Part shown: piece after piece, positions 8,303-23,400 of the stretch
Numbering within the stretch: position 1 is the stretch's first letter
Layout of the letters: every line of letters begins with the position of its first letter
DNA from: a virus
DNA: 64,000 nt
Direction: 5' to 3' (one strand)
Virus record (IMG/VR): IMGVR_UViG_3300019458_000002
Coordinates: 107,714-171,713 of that record
Program-made: the position numbers and the translations under genes
The notes under the pieces: model-generated
Databases searched by the model: none
The model's input: the letters and a program-made list of their open reading frames with translations, nothing else
What the model was told of the DNA's origin: nothing

Positions 8303-8311
8303 AGATAAAGT

Positions 8312-8367
8312 CCCGGTCACAGATGCGTTGACCCTCCCTCTTTTCTGGTCTGTGACCGGGCAATTTT
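8312..8367 (+). terminator. Rho-independent terminator with long stem
   Basis: A perfect 12-bp stem (8312-8323 pairing with 8349-8360) with a 25-base loop, followed by CAATTTTT. It ends the operon that finishes at 8302, just before the HNH gene. The pyrimidine-rich loop is unusually long for a terminator. Confidence 0.75.
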
Positions 8368-8369
8368 TA

Positions 8370-8377
8370 GCTATTTA
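8370..8377 (+). promoter_or_regulatory. GCTAT box before an SD-less GTG start
   Basis: GCTATTTA directly follows the terminator and lies 14 bases before the GTG at 8384, with TAGTGTG spanning the start. No clear -35 box is seen and there is no Shine-Dalgarno sequence. It matches a motif shared with other SD-less genes in this window (2983, 10825, 15978, 30087, 31173). Confidence 0.4.
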
Positions 8378-8383
8378 GTTAGT

Positions 8384-15747: not shown

Positions 15748-15948
15748 ATGCTAATCGAGAGCGATGAGAACTATATCGGCCTGAAGCGGTTTGACTACAA
15801 CATCAACAAGGCTCTGGAGCGGTACCCTAGTGGTGCGCCCAATCACATTATCTCGGGAGCCCTAATGATTCCTGAGGACCAAATTGACTTCGTTTATAAT
15901 GGCATCGTAGAAAAACTGCGTATTTTAATGGGTGTGAAGCTTGATTAA
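15748..15948 (+). CDS. Hypothetical small protein
   Basis: 66 residues from the ATG at 15748 in the TAAGATG arrangement seen at other junctions here; an in-frame ATG at 15730 is an alternative. The sequence (LKRFDYNINKALERYP, HIISGALMIPEDQIDFVYNG) looks like a small soluble helical protein. Its stop lies within the promoter of the polymerase gene. Confidence 0.5.
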   Translation: MLIESDENYIGLKRFDYNINKALERYPSGAPNHIISGALMIPEDQIDFVYNGIVEKLRILMGVKLD

Positions 15949-15969
15949 AACTTGTTTTTCTGCTATACT
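15941..15969 (+). promoter_or_regulatory. Promoter of the DNA polymerase gene
   Basis: TTGATT (15941-15946), a 17-base spacer and TATACT (15964-15969) preceded by GC. The predicted start (about 15976) is practically at the GTG start codon at 15978, and no Shine-Dalgarno sequence is present. Confidence 0.65.
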
Positions 15970-15977
15970 CTCTTATA

Positions 15978-18900
15978 GTGCCCAATTTTAAGCAATTTCC
16001 GACCTGCCACTGTCATCCTCAGTCCTTAGATAGCGCTTCCACTCCAAAAGCCTTTGCTCAAAGGGAGGTGGAACTTGGCTCAGGGACCCTCACAGTAACA
16101 GACCATGGGTCTCTTGCTGCTGTTCGTGAGGTTTATGACCTAGCCAAGAAAAATGGCCTAATAGCAATCCCTGGCCTCGAAGGCTATTTTCGGGATGACG
16201 ATTGTCCTATCCTCCTTGCAAATGGAGTCAGTAAGAACGCTGAAGGTACGCTTGCAGACTACTGCAAGTACTTTCATATTACCCTTCACTTCCTAGACCA
16301 ACCGGCCTTTGAGTGCGGGGTTCGACTGCTTTCCAAAGCTGAGGAACGTGCCGAGCGCCATGGCTCAGAGAGAAAGCCTCTTTTTAACTGGGATAATCTA
16401 GAGGAGCTTGGAAGCTACAACGTAACAGCAACATCTAGTTGCTTGGTTGGTATGGTGCAAAGACATCTAGTTGCCCAAAACAACTTCAAGATGGCCAAGC
16501 TGTATTTTGATAGGCTTAATGCCATTTTCAAGCCAGGTAACTTCTACACAGAAGTCTTTCCCCATGTCTGTGACCGCAACTGGGTGCAGGCGGTGTTCGT
16601 AACTCTTGAAGATGGAACCAAGATAAAGTACGGAGCAACAAAGAAGCTTCGAACAAATGCCTCCGACGAAATCCCTGCCGAAGACCTAGCTAAGGCCTTT
16701 GGTAAAAAAGGGGAGAAGCACGAGGTTCTGCTAGCGGTTAAAAACTATCAAACCTGGTCAGATTATCCTGAGCCACAGAAGATTACTAAGGTTGAGCACA
16801 TCGAAGACTTCATTGTGAATGAATGTAGACCATGGGCAGAGGATGGAGACATTCAGAAGGGTGCTAACCATGCTGTACTACATCTAGCAAAGCAGGCAGG
16901 CACTTCAATCCTGATTGGAGACGACTCTCACTTTGCTCACCCTGAAGACAAGATTGTTCAAGATGTGCGCCTTTCACAGGGCGGCAGCTGGAGGTTTTCA
17001 ACTTCCTATCACCGTTTGTCCTCAGAAGAGGCATTTGGGTATTTCAGTTCTAAAATGGATATCAGCGCAAGTCAGTTTATGTCTTGGGTTGATAACGCCT
17101 CAGAGTGGGCATCACGATTTAAGGACTTCAAATTCGATAGCAAGCCAAGTCTGCCTACCAAGTTCTATCCCTCAAACACGCTCAAGCACATGGGCTCTCT
17201 TATTGAGAGTCATGGGCGTATGCAGTGGAACAAGCCAGAGTATGTTCAGCGTCTACAAACAGAAATTGAGCTTCTACACCGCAACGGAACAATTGACTTG
17301 CTTCCATACTTCTTTCTAGCAGAAGAGTCCTTGGCTCTCTATCAAAATGAGAGAGTCTTGACTGGTCCAGGCAGAGGTTCTGCAGCTGGTTTGCTTATGG
17401 CTTACCTGTTGGGTATTACTCACGTAGACCCTCTGAAATACGACCTATCTCTAGACAGATTTCTAACTCTTGACCGTGTTAAGTCTGGCAAACTTCCCGA
17501 CATAGATATGGACTTTCCTGACCGAGAACTACTTCTAACCTGGCTAGATAAGAGATTCGGAGACCACTACGCACAAATTAGCGTAGACAGCACACTTCGA
17601 CTCAAGATGGCAGTACGCGACGTTGCAAGGCTACGCCATGGAGAAGTGACAGGGCACATTCACTCTCTTTGCGGGAAGTTCATGATGCCTCCACAGGGCG
17701 TTACAGACCTTAACTTCATCATGGGCTATGATACCGATGACGGTAACCATGTCGTAGGTTCTATTGAATATGACCCAGCGTTAAAGGAATATGTTAATGC
17801 GTACTCTCAAGACTGGGAGGTAGTGAAGAAGTGCCTTGGCCTACCTAGACAGAAGGGAAGACACGCATCTGCATTCGTGGTAGCAAACAAACCTATTGGT
17901 GAATTCATACCCCTGACTGAGGTAAGCGGGGTCAAGGTTACTCAATTTACGGCCAAAAGCGTAGAAGCTGCAGGCGGCATAAAGATGGACTTCCTGGTGG
18001 TCAACACATTGAAGGATATCTCGGCCTGCATCAGATTAATCCAGGAAAGGCATATCCAAACTAACATTCCCGACATGGTCCTTGATGGAGTCCTAGTTCC
18101 TTCATTCCGTCTCATTCCAGCGGCCCCAGGTAACCCAAGGTTAGTTGATATCTATGACCTTCCTGAAGACCAGAGTGTGTTCAAGGATGTGGCTGAGGGT
18201 CGCACAGAGACGGTGTTTCAATTTAATACACCTGGAGCAGTCCAGTGGCTAAACCAATTCAATTACGAGAAGGAAAACGGCAACAAAGCAATTGATTCAA
18301 TTCTAGAAATGGCAATATTCACAGCACTAGACCGACCTGGTCCCCTAGATATGTTTGTGAACAACCCAGACCAAAAGAACAAGAAACATAATATGTTGGT
18401 TGAGTATGCAAGGCGTGTGCGCGGTGAAACCCCTAGCACTGAAGTGCTACCGTTCTTTGATGAGCTATTGCCTGAAACCAAGGGCATCATGTGCTTTCAG
18501 GAACAATTGCAGAAGTGCTATCAGTACCTAACTGGATGCACAGGCGCCCAAGCAGAAGAGTTTCGGTCGGATGTGGCTAAGAAGCTCAAAGCAAAAGTAG
18601 AGAAGGCATACACCTTCTTTATTGACAGAGCCACACAGAAGATTGGCGAAGAAAGTGCCAAGGCAGTCTGGGAGGCGTTTATTACCTGGGCAGAGTACGG
18701 ATTCAATAAGTCACATGCAGTATCTTATGCCTTCATGGCATATGCCTGTGCCTACCTTAAGCATCACTATCCCCTGGAATGGTGGTGCTCAGTTCTGAAG
18801 AACGCAAACAAGACAGATATCAATGAAAAATTTTGGAAATATTGCAGCAAGTACATAGAGCTACCAGACGTAAAGCTCTCTGGAGAGAATTTTGAAATCC

Positions 18901-19871
18901 AAGGAGACAAAATACGAGCGCCCATTAGTCTCCTCCATGGTGTAGGAGAGAAAGCTCTTGAGCAATTATATAAGGGGCTGCCATATACGGATATTACGGA
19001 CTTCTGTCAGAAGATTCAGAAGCACAAGAAAGACGGCGCCGTTGCCGTCATGAAGAAGAAAAAGAAGAAGGATAAGAAGACTGGCGTCGAGACTATAACG
19101 GAAGTTCCAGGTGAAAAACTAGCTCACAATGCCCTTAATAGACGAGTTATATATGGACTGATTCTTTCTGGGGCTATGGATAGCCTATTCCCGGTCTCTC
19201 TTGTGAACTCAATGGGAGAAACAGAGACGCTATCTACAGCAGACTTTTTCTTTGAGTACGAGAAGGCTATTGCTGAGGCTACCGGCAAGAAGATGGAAGC
19301 AGTTAACAGCAAGTACGTACAAATCAATCCTCTGACTCGCTATCAAATGCGCAAGTCAGTGCTCCCTGCTTATAGTGAGAACATTATCCCTTATGTAACA
19401 AATCCTGATAACAACGTTGTTTCAAAGGGCAAGATTCTTCCTATGGTTGTATGGGGCGGCGACAAGATTCCGGTCATAACTCTAGACCAGTTCATGAAGG
19501 TTGATAGTAAGGAAATTATTCCAAGCCCCATCACTGTAGCGGTGCCATGTTTTATTGAAGACAGCAAGTACTTTGAATTCGTAAAGAAAGACAGTAAGGG
19601 CAAAGATAAAAAGAAGCAGGGCTGTGAGTTTAACATCGACTTCGAAGGCGCTAAGCTGAAAATTATGGCTTGGCAACATATGGAGAAAGATGGCAACTAT
19701 GGTCGTTACATTGCGCATCCATTGCCTGAAATCTTCAAGGAAAAATTGGTCGGTTCCATTGTGCTTTTGATTTGTACAAAGGAAAAAGAAGGTAAGGCAT
19801 TCACAGCTGATGACCTAATCATGGTTCAAAAGGCTATTTCAGAAGAGAAGGAAAAAGATGATGAAGCTTAA
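15978..19871 (+). CDS. dnaE-like: DNA polymerase III alpha-subunit-like (C-family) replicative polymerase
   Basis: 1297 residues. It starts with a PHP domain (CHCHPQSLDSA at about 10, VTDHG at about 41). The palm follows: GPGRGSAAGLLMAYLLGITH (about 465), then PDIDMDFPD (about 507), holding two catalytic Asp residues. IKMDFLVVNTL (about 670) holds the probable third. HASAF and the finger region are present. Phages normally use A- or B-family polymerases, so a full DnaE is notable. GTG is used because PHP residues begin just after it. No clamp, clamp loader or proofreading exonuclease gene is seen in the window; the PHP domain might proofread. Confidence 0.92.
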   Translation: MPNFKQFPTCHCHPQSLDSASTPKAFAQREVELGSGTLTVTDHGSLAAVREVYDLAKKNGLIAIPGLEGYFRDDDCPILLANGVSKNAEGTLADYCKYFHITLHFLDQPAFECGVRLLSKAEERAERHGSERKPLFNWDNLEELGSYNVTATSSCLVGMVQRHLVAQNNFKMAKLYFDRLNAIFKPGNFYTEVFPHVCDRNWVQAVFVTLEDGTKIKYGATKKLRTNASDEIPAEDLAKAFGKKGEKHEVLLAVKNYQTWSDYPEPQKITKVEHIEDFIVNECRPWAEDGDIQKGANHAVLHLAKQAGTSILIGDDSHFAHPEDKIVQDVRLSQGGSWRFSTSYHRLSSEEAFGYFSSKMDISASQFMSWVDNASEWASRFKDFKFDSKPSLPTKFYPSNTLKHMGSLIESHGRMQWNKPEYVQRLQTEIELLHRNGTIDLLPYFFLAEESLALYQNERVLTGPGRGSAAGLLMAYLLGITHVDPLKYDLSLDRFLTLDRVKSGKLPDIDMDFPDRELLLTWLDKRFGDHYAQISVDSTLRLKMAVRDVARLRHGEVTGHIHSLCGKFMMPPQGVTDLNFIMGYDTDDGNHVVGSIEYDPALKEYVNAYSQDWEVVKKCLGLPRQKGRHASAFVVANKPIGEFIPLTEVSGVKVTQFTAKSVEAAGGIKMDFLVVNTLKDISACIRLIQERHIQTNIPDMVLDGVLVPSFRLIPAAPGNPRLVDIYDLPEDQSVFKDVAEGRTETVFQFNTPGAVQWLNQFNYEKENGNKAIDSILEMAIFTALDRPGPLDMFVNNPDQKNKKHNMLVEYARRVRGETPSTEVLPFFDELLPETKGIMCFQEQLQKCYQYLTGCTGAQAEEFRSDVAKKLKAKVEKAYTFFIDRATQKIGEESAKAVWEAFITWAEYGFNKSHAVSYAFMAYACAYLKHHYPLEWWCSVLKNANKTDINEKFWKYCSKYIELPDVKLSGENFEIQGDKIRAPISLLHGVGEKALEQLYKGLPYTDITDFCQKIQKHKKDGAVAVMKKKKKKDKKTGVETITEVPGEKLAHNALNRRVIYGLILSGAMDSLFPVSLVNSMGETETLSTADFFFEYEKAIAEATGKKMEAVNSKYVQINPLTRYQMRKSVLPAYSENIIPYVTNPDNNVVSKGKILPMVVWGGDKIPVITLDQFMKVDSKEIIPSPITVAVPCFIEDSKYFEFVKKDSKGKDKKKQGCEFNIDFEGAKLKIMAWQHMEKDGNYGRYIAHPLPEIFKEKLVGSIVLLICTKEKEGKAFTADDLIMVQKAISEEKEKDDEA

Positions 19872-20604
19872 TGAATTACTGACAGAATGGCACCAGTGCG
19901 CAAACCTCATAGCTAGAGAAAACGAGGCTATTCCGCCAGCCACAAGGTCAGGTATTTTGGCCTCTATTAACCAGGCGAAAGAACGAGCAAAAGTGCTTCA
20001 AAATGAGTACAAACGCATTATTTTGAGTGATAGCGTCGCAATCTTTCTAGATGGAGACAGGAACAAGGTATCTGAGTTTCTGTATGTGACTGAGGAGTCA
20101 TATCCTGGTGACATTCTCCTGGTAGACGCAAACTGCCTCTACGATAGACTAGCTGAGTCAATAAAGTTCGTTGTTGACCAAAGGCTTGAAATCGGTTCTG
20201 GGCAGCTATACACCGTCTTCCAAGCACTTAAGGACGCCTGCAAAGAAGCCCAGTATGAAAAGGAATTGCAACATCCAGACCCTCAAACAGTTCGAACCGC
20301 TATTGACTTTGGTGAATTAGTATGCTATACTCGCGACTTGGTTCAGAAGCCAAACGGCATTCAGCCCAGCGTAGCTTACGTTCGACTCCAGATTGCGCTG
20401 GCCGCATTTAATGCAGACTTTGCTGGCTCCACTGTACCTGTGGTGCTGTATAACATCAATGAAAACGAAAAGGAAGGACTTAGAAGTATTTTCACAGAAA
20501 ATGGAACACTAGATTTAACACTAATAGAAGACCAATTAATCACAAAAGAATACATTTCAACTCAATTCAAAACTGTCAAAAAGAACTTACAAGGAAAGCA
20601 ATAA
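19858..20604 (+). CDS. Hypothetical protein of the replication block
   Basis: 248 residues from an ATG with AAGGAAAAAG upstream (ATG ATG; the second is also possible). It overlaps the polymerase stop by 14 bases. Mostly helical with a central SDSVAIFLDGDRNKVSEFLY segment. No motif recognised. It lies between polymerase and the probable ssDNA-binding protein, so a replication accessory role is plausible. An internal promoter-like sequence is embedded at 20303-20331. Confidence 0.6.
   Translation: MMKLNELLTEWHQCANLIARENEAIPPATRSGILASINQAKERAKVLQNEYKRIILSDSVAIFLDGDRNKVSEFLYVTEESYPGDILLVDANCLYDRLAESIKFVVDQRLEIGSGQLYTVFQALKDACKEAQYEKELQHPDPQTVRTAIDFGELVCYTRDLVQKPNGIQPSVAYVRLQIALAAFNADFAGSTVPVVLYNINENEKEGLRSIFTENGTLDLTLIEDQLITKEYISTQFKTVKKNLQGKQ
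20303..20331 (+). promoter_or_regulatory. Internal promoter-like sequence
   Basis: TTGACT (20303-20308), a 17-base spacer and TATACT (20326-20331) preceded by GC, as in the promoters at 2943 and 15941. It could drive the abundant ssDNA-binding protein gene at 20606. An in-frame TTG at 20338 is at the distance from the GCTAT box where other SD-less starts lie. It is within coding sequence, so may be chance. Confidence 0.4.
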
Positions 20605-20605
20605 T

Positions 20606-21646
20606 ATGGAAAATACATTCGGAAAGTCACGATACGATTCAGGGAGCGCATTCAAGAAGCGCCAGACACTTAAGCCCGGTTCAAACGTTCGCAGGGTTCT
20701 ACCTGCCTTCGGGTCGCTTGCAGCAAGCGGTAAGTGGTCACAATGGGTGTCCCAGCACTTCGGCTGGAATGGTTTAAACAAGAACAACCCCGACAAGCCT
20801 ATGCCACGCCCATTTCAGTGCGTCTTTCAGAAGAACTACAAGACCCAGCTTGTTCTGCAGGAATGCGATGCTTGCACGGAAATCGAAGTCAAGAAAGAGG
20901 AGCTAGAAGCTCTAGAAGCCTCTCTCAAGGCTAAGAAGGCAAGTCAGAAGCAGCTTGATGTCGAGCTTCAGCCTCTTAAGACTTGGCTCAAGGAACACAA
21001 CAAGGACAACAAGCACTATATCAACACTATGCTAGAGAACGGAGACTTTGAGCTAACGGCCATCTCCAATACCTGCATGACTCGTCTCAAGGAAGAGTTT
21101 AAGCGAGTGTCTCAGAAGTACGGTGTCGACCCCACAGATGTGGAGCAAGGTGTTTGGATTGACTTCAAGCGCATTATCCCACAGGGTGGTCAGTTACGGG
21201 ATGCAGATGACGTCCCATCTGTAGTCATGGAGATGGTTACTGTCAATGGCCAGAAGATGGAACAGCTGAAGCTAGCCCCTCTATCTGACGAAGTCCTGCG
21301 ACGCGCAGTTCAAGAATGTGTGGACCTATCAAAGCAGGTTACAATCATTACCCCAGAACAGGTCACGGCTATTGTGTCGTCTTCTGGTTCTCCCGAAGAA
21401 ATCGATGCAGTATTTGGTATGACCCAGAAAAATGTTGAGCAGTCTCCAGAACCAGTCAAGGTTGCTGAAGCAAGGGTTACGCCAGTAAAGGCTTCTACCG
21501 TCAAGGCGGTTTCAACTCCTCCAACGGTTCAGTATAAAGCTGAACCAAAGGTGGTAGCAGAAGCTGTAACAATGGCACCTGGGTCTCAAGATTCTGGCTC
21601 TGACACCTCTAAAGCAAGTCAGTTTGCTGCATTGTTTGGCGAGTAA
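20606..21646 (+). CDS. Probable single-stranded DNA-binding protein (gp32-like)
   Basis: 346 residues. The N-terminal third (RRVLPAFG, WSQWVSQHFGW, RPFQCVFQKNY, LQECDACTE) resembles the OB-fold core of T4 gp32-type proteins, with a Cys pair where gp32 holds zinc. A coiled-coil stretch (about 95-130) follows. The last 80 residues are a low-complexity Pro/Val/Ala linker ending in SQFAALFGE, like the flexible acidic tail with which SSBs contact partners. Its place just before recombinase, primase and helicase supports the call. AAGGA precedes the start. Confidence 0.6.
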   Translation: MENTFGKSRYDSGSAFKKRQTLKPGSNVRRVLPAFGSLAASGKWSQWVSQHFGWNGLNKNNPDKPMPRPFQCVFQKNYKTQLVLQECDACTEIEVKKEELEALEASLKAKKASQKQLDVELQPLKTWLKEHNKDNKHYINTMLENGDFELTAISNTCMTRLKEEFKRVSQKYGVDPTDVEQGVWIDFKRIIPQGGQLRDADDVPSVVMEMVTVNGQKMEQLKLAPLSDEVLRRAVQECVDLSKQVTIITPEQVTAIVSSSGSPEEIDAVFGMTQKNVEQSPEPVKVAEARVTPVKASTVKAVSTPPTVQYKAEPKVVAEAVTMAPGSQDSGSDTSKASQFAALFGE

Positions 21647-21656
21647 TTAAATAGGT

Positions 21657-21729
21657 TTGGTGCGGAGCCGATGAGTCGGCTTGCAGGTACGTTTTCTGAT
21701 ATGTGTTTGTTCATTACCTGACGCACCAA
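21657..21729 (+). ncRNA. Three-way-junction structured RNA candidate
   Basis: The gap after the SSB gene folds into an 8-bp closing stem (21657-21664 with 21722-21729), a perfect 6-bp hairpin with a TGAG loop (21666-21671 with 21676-21681) and a 6-bp arm (21684-21689 with 21715-21720). It is followed by TTTCTTT and, 10 bases on, by an ATG with no Shine-Dalgarno site. It could be a terminator, a processing signal or a translation control element for the next gene. It is not a tRNA: no T-arm. Confidence 0.5.
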
Positions 21730-21739
21730 TTTCTTTATC

Positions 21740-22303
21740 ATGATTCTTCAAAAAGACTTGATTAGGTGCCCAAGTGGTACCCCAGGCAATCCAGCAATAG
21801 AGATTAGCCTAGGTAAGATTCTTCAGGCTGAAGCAAGACAGATGGAGGTTGCTGCTGTAACCCCTCAGAAAGCGCCTGAACTATTGCAAGCATTCAACAA
21901 AGCATGGTCAGACCTTCATAAAATGATGACGGTAATGACTTATGAAAAAAATGTAGCTGAGAAGAATGCCAACAAAAGGAAGGCAGTCGTTCTCCTAGAG
22001 ATTGCTCCCAAAAAGTTGGAGGAGGCTGGTCTAAATTCTTCTGTAGACCATCGTGAAGCTGTACTTGCGTTAGATACTGAGTACCAGGAAGCCCTTGAGG
22101 TTGTAAACCAGATTGGGTGCCTTGTCGAGTATATAAAGGGTAAGCTAAAGAGCTTCGAAAACTCCTTCACGTCTGTGAAGAAAATTATGGGAGAAGATGC
22201 ATACAATATGCAAGGTCAAAGTGGACCAGTATATGGTGGAATTGACGAAGATACAGAAGTTGGAAAAACAGAATATACAGGATTCGGAAGGTCAAAATAC
22301 TAA
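21740..22303 (+). CDS. Hypothetical coiled-coil protein upstream of RecA
   Basis: 187 residues, mostly helix (PELLQAFNKAWSDLHKMM; YQEALEVVNQIGCLVEYIKG), with a flexible Gly-rich tail ending TGFGRSKY. The ATG at 21740 has no Shine-Dalgarno sequence but lies 10 bases after a predicted RNA structure. The stop overlaps the RecA-like start. Possibly a recombination mediator (T4 UvsY-like position), but no sequence motif shows this. Confidence 0.5.
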   Translation: MILQKDLIRCPSGTPGNPAIEISLGKILQAEARQMEVAAVTPQKAPELLQAFNKAWSDLHKMMTVMTYEKNVAEKNANKRKAVVLLEIAPKKLEEAGLNSSVDHREAVLALDTEYQEALEVVNQIGCLVEYIKGKLKSFENSFTSVKKIMGEDAYNMQGQSGPVYGGIDEDTEVGKTEYTGFGRSKY

Positions 22304-23400
22304 TGGCAAAAAACTGGCTAACAAAACTAAATAACTTAGAAGGTGCAGTCATTGATGACTACAATCCCTATAATCACGTACTACAGAGCCCGAGCCCGTC
22401 CCTGAACTTTACCTTCGGTAGAGGTCATGGTCTACCATTTGGATACACAGCAATTTTCTTTGGTCCTCCTGGAGGCGGCAAATCTGTTGTAGCCAATTCT
22501 ATGATTGGCCAGCTTCATAGTGATGACCCAGAAGCAATTGCAGTAAAGTTTAATACTGAGTTTCGAGAGAAAATTCAGCTTACTCCAGAACAAATGAAAC
22601 TCATGGGTATCGATAGAGAGCGTTACGTACCTTACGAGACCAATGACCCAGTACTTATCTTTGACCGTATCAACAACGATATCAATGCTATGTGCCAGGA
22701 AGGTGCGCCTATCAAGCTCATTATCATCGACTCCATCAATAGCATTGTAGGTCGTCGAACCATGAACGCAGACTCTCTTGGGGTCCAACAGATTGGAGAC
22801 CTTGCAGCTACATTGCAGGATGGCTTGAAGCAGATTCTTTCTACCATTCGCAATAACAAAATTGCTGTCATTCTTACTGCTCACATACGCGCAGAGATGG
22901 ACCAGCAGGAAATCAAGCGCCACAACACAGTCAAGATGGGCGCTGGTTACGGGGTCAAACACAATGCCGAGTACTTTGTGTACATTGAACAGAATCGCAA
23001 CAAAGATGGTCGCACAGACCTAATGGGCAACGAGTTTGTTGACGATAGTTGCCGAGACATCAATGATAACTCTGAAAAGACCGGACACAAGATTCGTGTT
23101 TGCATGAAGAAGTCTTCGGTAGGAGTTGCGGGACGTGTTGGTGAATTCACTTTCAATTACAACAAAGGTATCATTAATACTCACGAGGAGGTCTTCCTAT
23201 TGGGAGCCAACCGTGGTATAATTGAGAGAGTCAACAACATGACCTATGCCTTCAAAGATAAGAAATGGACTGGTAAGCAGTCCGTTCTGGAGGCAATCAG
23301 AACTGACACAGACCTGCAGAAAGCAATCCTCTCGGAACTAAAGCAGAGGGAAGCAAGCGGAGCCTTTGCAGCGGAGGATGTTGACGCAGAAGATGCGTAA
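22303..23400 (+). CDS. uvsX-like: RecA/UvsX-like recombinase
   Basis: 365 residues. Walker A GPPGGGKS (about 53-60), Walker B LIIIDSIN (about 145-152), then a DNA-binding loop region (GRRTMNADSLGVQQIGDLA) and AVILTAHIRAE. A C-terminal extension is acidic (AAEDVDAEDA), as in many RecA proteins. It forms filaments on ssDNA for strand exchange in recombination-dependent replication. Coupled by short overlaps to the coiled-coil gene before and primase after; AAGG lies before the start. Confidence 0.88.
   Translation: MAKNWLTKLNNLEGAVIDDYNPYNHVLQSPSPSLNFTFGRGHGLPFGYTAIFFGPPGGGKSVVANSMIGQLHSDDPEAIAVKFNTEFREKIQLTPEQMKLMGIDRERYVPYETNDPVLIFDRINNDINAMCQEGAPIKLIIIDSINSIVGRRTMNADSLGVQQIGDLAATLQDGLKQILSTIRNNKIAVILTAHIRAEMDQQEIKRHNTVKMGAGYGVKHNAEYFVYIEQNRNKDGRTDLMGNEFVDDSCRDINDNSEKTGHKIRVCMKKSSVGVAGRVGEFTFNYNKGIINTHEEVFLLGANRGIIERVNNMTYAFKDKKWTGKQSVLEAIRTDTDLQKAILSELKQREASGAFAAEDVDAEDA

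Follow-up and report, generated by a model that had tools for sequence, protein, structure and literature searches.

In bacteriophage T4, a weak terminator in mobE between nrdA and nrdB is reported to give about 30% termination (accessible sections of PMC2988022), and in T4 and RB69 the translational operator of gene 32, which consists of a pseudoknot and UUAAA repeats, lies in the 5' leader of the gene for the single-stranded DNA-binding protein (SSB) (accessible sections of PMC535899 and PMC3014915). The sole similar record among 50,697 phages, and the one cultured relative found, Myxococcus phage Mx1 (OR576727.2), carries a textbook intrinsic terminator, GGCCCCGGACTGAAAGGTCCGGGGCC-TTTTTGTTT, in the gap between SSB and the following gene, here called X. 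Our DNA, called the window throughout, is a stretch of 64,000 nt within a virus record of 171,713 bases (IMGVR_UViG_3300019458_000002). Directly behind its SSB gene lies a predicted RNA three-way junction, which is probably a leaky, branched intrinsic (rho-independent) terminator that ends the SSB transcript. No description of the SSB-X junction was found in open-access text.

The replication genes of the window run in the order pol III alpha (15978-19871, + strand, GTG start at 15978), a 248-aa protein, SSB (346 aa, 20606..21646, + strand), X (187 aa, 21740..22303, + strand), a RecA/UvsX-like recombinase (22303..23400, + strand) and onward, and the order pol-hyp-SSB-X-RecA-primase is common to the window and Mx1. 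SSB shows 33.8% identity over 76% of the query to the annotated ssDNA binding protein of Mx1 and has no significant Pfam match, X shows 41.8% identity over 75% of the query to an Mx1 hypothetical protein, and the recombinase, which matches Pfam PF00154 above the cut-off (E 3.9e-09), shows 46% identity to the Mx1 RecA-like protein. At the DNA level, no similarity to the window was found in phages. Alignment with relatives (A6, n = 15) supports 21740 as the start of X. Gene X always sits between SSB and RecA in these phages. Two of the 15 X members matched phrog_231, 'UvsY-like recombination mediator', weakly (best E 0.005) and the window's own X protein did not match it, a weak hint that X may act as a UvsY-like mediator.

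The SSB-X gap of 93 nt contains the junction on the + strand. The 5' arm of its closing stem, TTGGTGCG (21657..21664), begins 11 nt behind the SSB stop and pairs over 8 bp, including five G-C pairs, with the 3' arm CGCACCAA (21722..21729), closing a branched loop of 57 bases. Within this loop lie an inner hairpin of 6 bp with a TGAG loop (AGCCGA-TGAG-TCGGCT, 21666..21681) and a third arm of 6 bp (CAGGTA, 21684-21689, with TACCTG, 21715-21720; whole arm 21684..21720) with a 25-base loop. The T-rich tail TTTCTTT (21730..21736), a putative release site of the SSB transcript, follows at once, and the 8 nt right behind the 3' arm, TTTCTTTA, hold six T. Ten nucleotides separate the stem from the ATG at 21740, which has no SD-like 4-mer upstream. 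Thus the stems, the hairpin, the third arm, the tail and the ATG that an earlier sequence-only reading had listed are all present as it described them.

In the computed ensemble, the pairing probability was 0.66 for the outermost U-A pair of the closing stem and 0.95-1.0 for its other pairs, 0.78-1.0 for the inner hairpin and just 0.51-0.64 for the third arm, which is low because an alternative hairpin competes with it. Indeed, the minimum free energy (MFE) fold of the same 83 nt (-27.2 kcal/mol, versus -24.8 kcal/mol for the exact fold first drawn) leaves the closing stem unchanged, lengthens the hairpin slightly and replaces the third arm; the centroid of the 101-nt fold agrees with the first drawing. 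Therefore, we regard the closing stem and the hairpin as solid predictions and the third arm as a less solid one. The fold exceeds chance stability by a modest margin (z = -2.13; 7 of 200 shuffles were equally stable, and 77 of 6392 segments of 83 nt on both strands were at least as stable). In the 64 kb, each strand carries three outer stems of 8 bp or more that have loops of 35-80 bases and a T-rich tail, and one of those on the + strand is in the 93-nt SSB-X gap.

A compact G-C-rich stem with a short loop is usual for intrinsic terminators, but not strictly required. The element has a stable stem-loop, a U-rich run behind the 3' arm and the position at which relatives carry terminators, but not the compact G-C-rich stem with a short loop, and two relatives, L061 and L106, share this deviation. 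Its outer stem opens on the tail side with two U-A pairs rather than G-C. A simple terminator scan with loops of 3-8 did not list the element. On a rough, length-normalised score of the d'Aubenton Carafa type, the window reached about 2, Mx1 69, L106 6, L061 -15 and a further relative, L078, -23, and from the value of about 2 against 69 in Mx1 a leaky or weak stop is to be expected. Counting against a terminator are the modest z score, the 17 of 73 gaps among the loci below that hold a strong hairpin with no good T tail, and the 31 of 73 shorter than 15 nt. The terminator reading rests on the predicted structure, the tail, the gene order and the positional match to the terminators of relatives; termination itself, its efficiency and the promoter we infer. 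Most likely, then, the element is an ordinary kind of signal, an intrinsic terminator, in an unusual branched form. Another intergenic long-looped stem resembling a terminator was seen at 8303-8383 (+ strand), where CCCGGTCACAGA...TCTGTGACCGGG is followed by CAATTTTTAG (terminator score -32); it precedes a GTG start with no SD.

The pattern TTGA-N17-20-GCTATACT matched the + strand of the window three times (2943-2972, 15941-15969 and 20303-20331) versus 0.02 expected from 100 shuffles, an expectation flattered by the choice of the pattern after examples had been seen, and a general sigma-70 scan gave 25 matches versus 27.4 in shuffles, which is no excess. The promoter-like motif at 20303..20331 (+ strand; TTGACT-N17-TATACT with TGCTATACT) agrees with the sigma-70 consensus at 10 of 12 positions, lies inside the gene preceding SSB, 275 bp upstream of SSB, and is a possible start of the SSB transcript. 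The 2943 and 15941 motifs stand just before starts, namely that of the gene at 2983 and the polymerase GTG at 15978, which is 8 nt behind its motif, and would give nearly leaderless transcripts. The pattern has no match between SSB and X, so with a stop at 21730-21736, X, RecA and the following genes would need read-through. We propose that RNA polymerase that started at a promoter further upstream, and probably at the 20303 motif as well, would cross 21657-21729, and that the outer stem TTGGTGCG/CGCACCAA would close while TTTCTTT occupies the RNA-DNA hybrid. Some polymerases would be released there, which would leave SSB with a short and stable message, about 1.4 kb long if counted from the 20303 motif, and the remaining ones would read through into X, RecA, primase and helicase. 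The outcome would be a high level of SSB and lower levels of the recombination and replication proteins.

Relatives were found in viral contigs by pair and multiple-alignment scans; single-sequence protein scans of viral contigs yielded none, and no relative was found in genome contigs. The alignment-based scans gave 22, 5 and 80 loci, which overlap, the 80 being the best 80 of 131 relatives. We dropped the distant polymerase matches L013-L024 and the distant RecA match L029, in which SSB and X were unrecognised, four loci in which SSB, or SSB and X, was not found in the stretch examined (L060, L071, L083 and L092), and further loci with identical core sequence (15 groups). The final set comprised 73 distinct SSB-X-RecA loci (72 relatives and the window) in which SSB and X were both recognised; its rows are not independent because near-relatives such as L037/L039, L075/L077 and L045/L047 were retained. 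X starts were assigned by rule as the first ATG after the SSB stop minus 30, otherwise GTG/TTG, and in long gaps the first 300 nt were scanned. A terminator was called where a helix with a stacking energy of -10 or lower was followed by at least five T in 8 nt, and a stricter scan applied the same rule with stricter stem trimming. An earlier measurement on MFE folds (mean T in 10 nt 4.1 behind versus 2.5 before the stem) was blurred because outer pairs in those folds extend into the tail.

The SSB-X gap was at least 30 nt long in 40 of the 73 loci, and 31 loci had no element because the gap was shorter than 15 nt. Of the 40 longer gaps, 22 held a stem with a T-rich tail (21 of 39 relatives and the window), whereas the same rule was satisfied by 57 of 800 shuffles and by 30 of 733 random segments from the same loci. 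With stricter trimming, 19 of the 40 SSB-X gaps (18 of 39 relatives and the window) were positive versus 1 of 28 X-RecA gaps of at least 30 nt, a control that is not length-matched, these gaps often being much longer and having other genes inside. Hairpins of -15 or lower, with any tail, occurred in 35 of the 40 gaps. Labelled by the stricter scan, the 73 loci comprised 19 with a terminator (T), 17 with a strong hairpin and no good T tail (H) and 37 with neither (N). Most stems in relatives are plain hairpins, and their sequence and size are wholly different between relatives. L061, however, is branched, with an 8-bp outer stem, a 45-base loop and the tail CTTTCTTTT; L106 is branched too, with a 12-bp outer stem, a 38-base loop and the tail TTTTTCTT; and L075 has a T-rich tail of the same kind, TTTTCTTTT.

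On a quick RecA tree the T/H/N states required at least 16 changes versus 30.9 in shuffles, which suggests that the state is inherited, yet often lost or altered. Such divergence of the stems, together with at least 16 state changes, fits terminators that can be replaced better than an RNA that binds a ligand. Moreover, L075 and L077 have one hairpin sequence in common, and in L077, where X starts 249 nt further on, the hairpin stays near SSB and away from the distant X, and thus appears to go with the SSB end. Across these loci, therefore, the position behind SSB is conserved as a putative stop signal, and the sequence and shape of the RNA are not. The sequence-only reading had offered an attenuator between SSB and RecA as one of three roles, and this part of it gained support from the terminators of unrelated sequence at the SSB/X junction of relatives.

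Two further gaps were left uncounted: visual inspection of L058 shows a further hairpin resembling a terminator, GGACCGTACACCAGGTACGGTCC-TTTTATTTTT, immediately upstream of X in a gap scanned over its first 300 nt, and in L004 the stem of GGGGGCCAGG...CCTGGCCCCC-ATTTTTC ran into the tail. ARAGORN found no tRNA within the window. Locus L038 has two tRNA-like matches to Rfam RF00005 (6469-6599 and 6923-7050; 40.7 and 38 bits), whose anticodon region carries a long insert that stretches them (of the first, 72 positions are not shown in the alignment); the two inserts have sequence in common. Plain ARAGORN misses these matches and, with introns allowed, gives one tRNA-Ile with an intron. Half of the insert is matched by 11 viral-contig stretches, and the other half occurs, among 118 loci examined, only in loci of the same contig. 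The SSB-X gap of L038 (3609-3885, 277 nt) contains a fold resembling a tRNA, its T-loop reading TTCGATT, flanked on each side by a copy of GTGCCGGAGGAGAACTCCGGACGGG, and this gap has no Rfam match up to E 0.5.

The tail also bears on whether the junction, instead of stopping polymerase, stabilises or processes the 3' end, so that the SSB mRNA outlives the read-through remainder. The junction would then block 3' exonucleases, or be cut, and the nearly equal numbers of H gaps (17) and T gaps (19) would fit protection of a 3' end; likewise, T4 gene 32 mRNA is described as unusually stable and as cut by RNase E at +831 near the stop codon (accessible sections of PMC3014915). Such a role is compatible with termination, but the T-rich tail adjoins the stem directly both in the window element and in Mx1, and we consider stabilisation or processing in place of termination unlikely.

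The sequence-only reading had also proposed an RNA that controls translation of the gene at 21740, and a regulatory RNA of this kind, riboswitch-like or bound by SSB, would draw on the branched fold, on the stem end 10 nt before the ATG, which is within the ribosome footprint, and on the X start without an SD. The missing SD is real but ordinary, because 26 of the 43 + strand genes of the window, by a crude ORF choice, lack an SD-like 4-mer and 17 have one. Across the 73 loci an SD before X does not track the hairpin (12 of 19 T, 10 of 17 H and 17 of 37 N loci), 31 of the 73 loci have no room for an element, and the hairpin that L077 shares with L075 lies near SSB, 249 nt from X. The parallel with T4 gp32 that had been drawn fails on position: a gp32-like operator is unsupported because the T4 operator lies in the 5' leader of gene 32 (accessible sections of PMC535899 and PMC3014915), whereas the element is 3' of SSB. 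Nor was sequence or structure conserved. No Rfam family reached its gathering score in the window, and a search of 201 bases up to E 10 gave only chance-level, biologically unlikely matches. A covariance model (R1), built from the sequence of the element alone, aligned to itself, and insensitive to distant kin, matched only itself in 77 sources (the window and 76 loci; 906,681 bases) and found one copy, itself, in its own 171,713-base record. The exact 22-base core of the element was absent from viral contigs, among which very near records may be left out, and the nearest relative found was at about 58% in RecA. The sequence-only reading, which had asked for such a covariance search of relatives, had named lack of covariation in relatives as a finding that would speak against it, and for the idea of a conserved three-way-junction class this is what was obtained, since the single-sequence model matches only itself. 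Judged by these searches, the three-way junction is not a conserved RNA class such as a riboswitch or ribozyme, and control of X translation is improbable.

The branched terminator might, further, be a sensor, in which SSB or a small ligand on the 25-base loop tips the outer stem between stop and read-through as the inner hairpin and the weak third arm compete with the alternative fold; we give this very little credence. Were it true, the SSB level would set the supply of the downstream recombination proteins, and L061 and L106 would be independent versions. That a short spacer folded by chance would agree with the z of just -2.13, the three comparable T-tailed, long-range stems on each strand of the 64 kb and the 31 of 73 loci without any element, but the junction occupies the very position at which terminators occur in roughly half of the gap-bearing relatives, and we consider a chance fold very unlikely.

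If the terminator reading is correct, a terminator separating SSB from X and RecA has been repeatedly renewed in little-studied large phages related to Mx1: the stop is kept or replaced, and its sequence and shape change freely. Such a terminator could be a simple means of making more SSB than recombinase out of a single gene cluster. The case also warns that what looks like a convincing, isolated three-way junction between phage genes may turn out to be a terminator with a long loop, of the kind overlooked by scans restricted to short loops.

Compared with known systems, the element resembles the Mx1 terminator in following SSB immediately, in lying within a shared gene order and in having a T-rich tail at once after the stem, and differs from it in stem and loop: 11 bp, rich in G-C, and a 4-base loop in Mx1, against 8 bp, a U-A start and a 57-base branched loop in the window. 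It shares with the gene 32 operator of T4 and RB69 a structured RNA within the SSB transcript, but that RNA is a 5' pseudoknot (accessible sections of PMC535899 and PMC3014915) and the window has a three-way junction 3' of SSB. The RNase E site of T4 gene 32 (+831) likewise makes the 3' end of the SSB gene a place of mRNA control, but is a cleavage site (accessible sections of PMC3014915). By analogy, the nearest described use would be that of the weak mobE terminator of T4, a partial stop proposed to cut read-through into the next essential gene of the operon; it differs in lying within the mobE coding region among nucleotide-reductase genes, in being followed by a promoter and in its unrelated sequence (accessible sections of PMC2988022).
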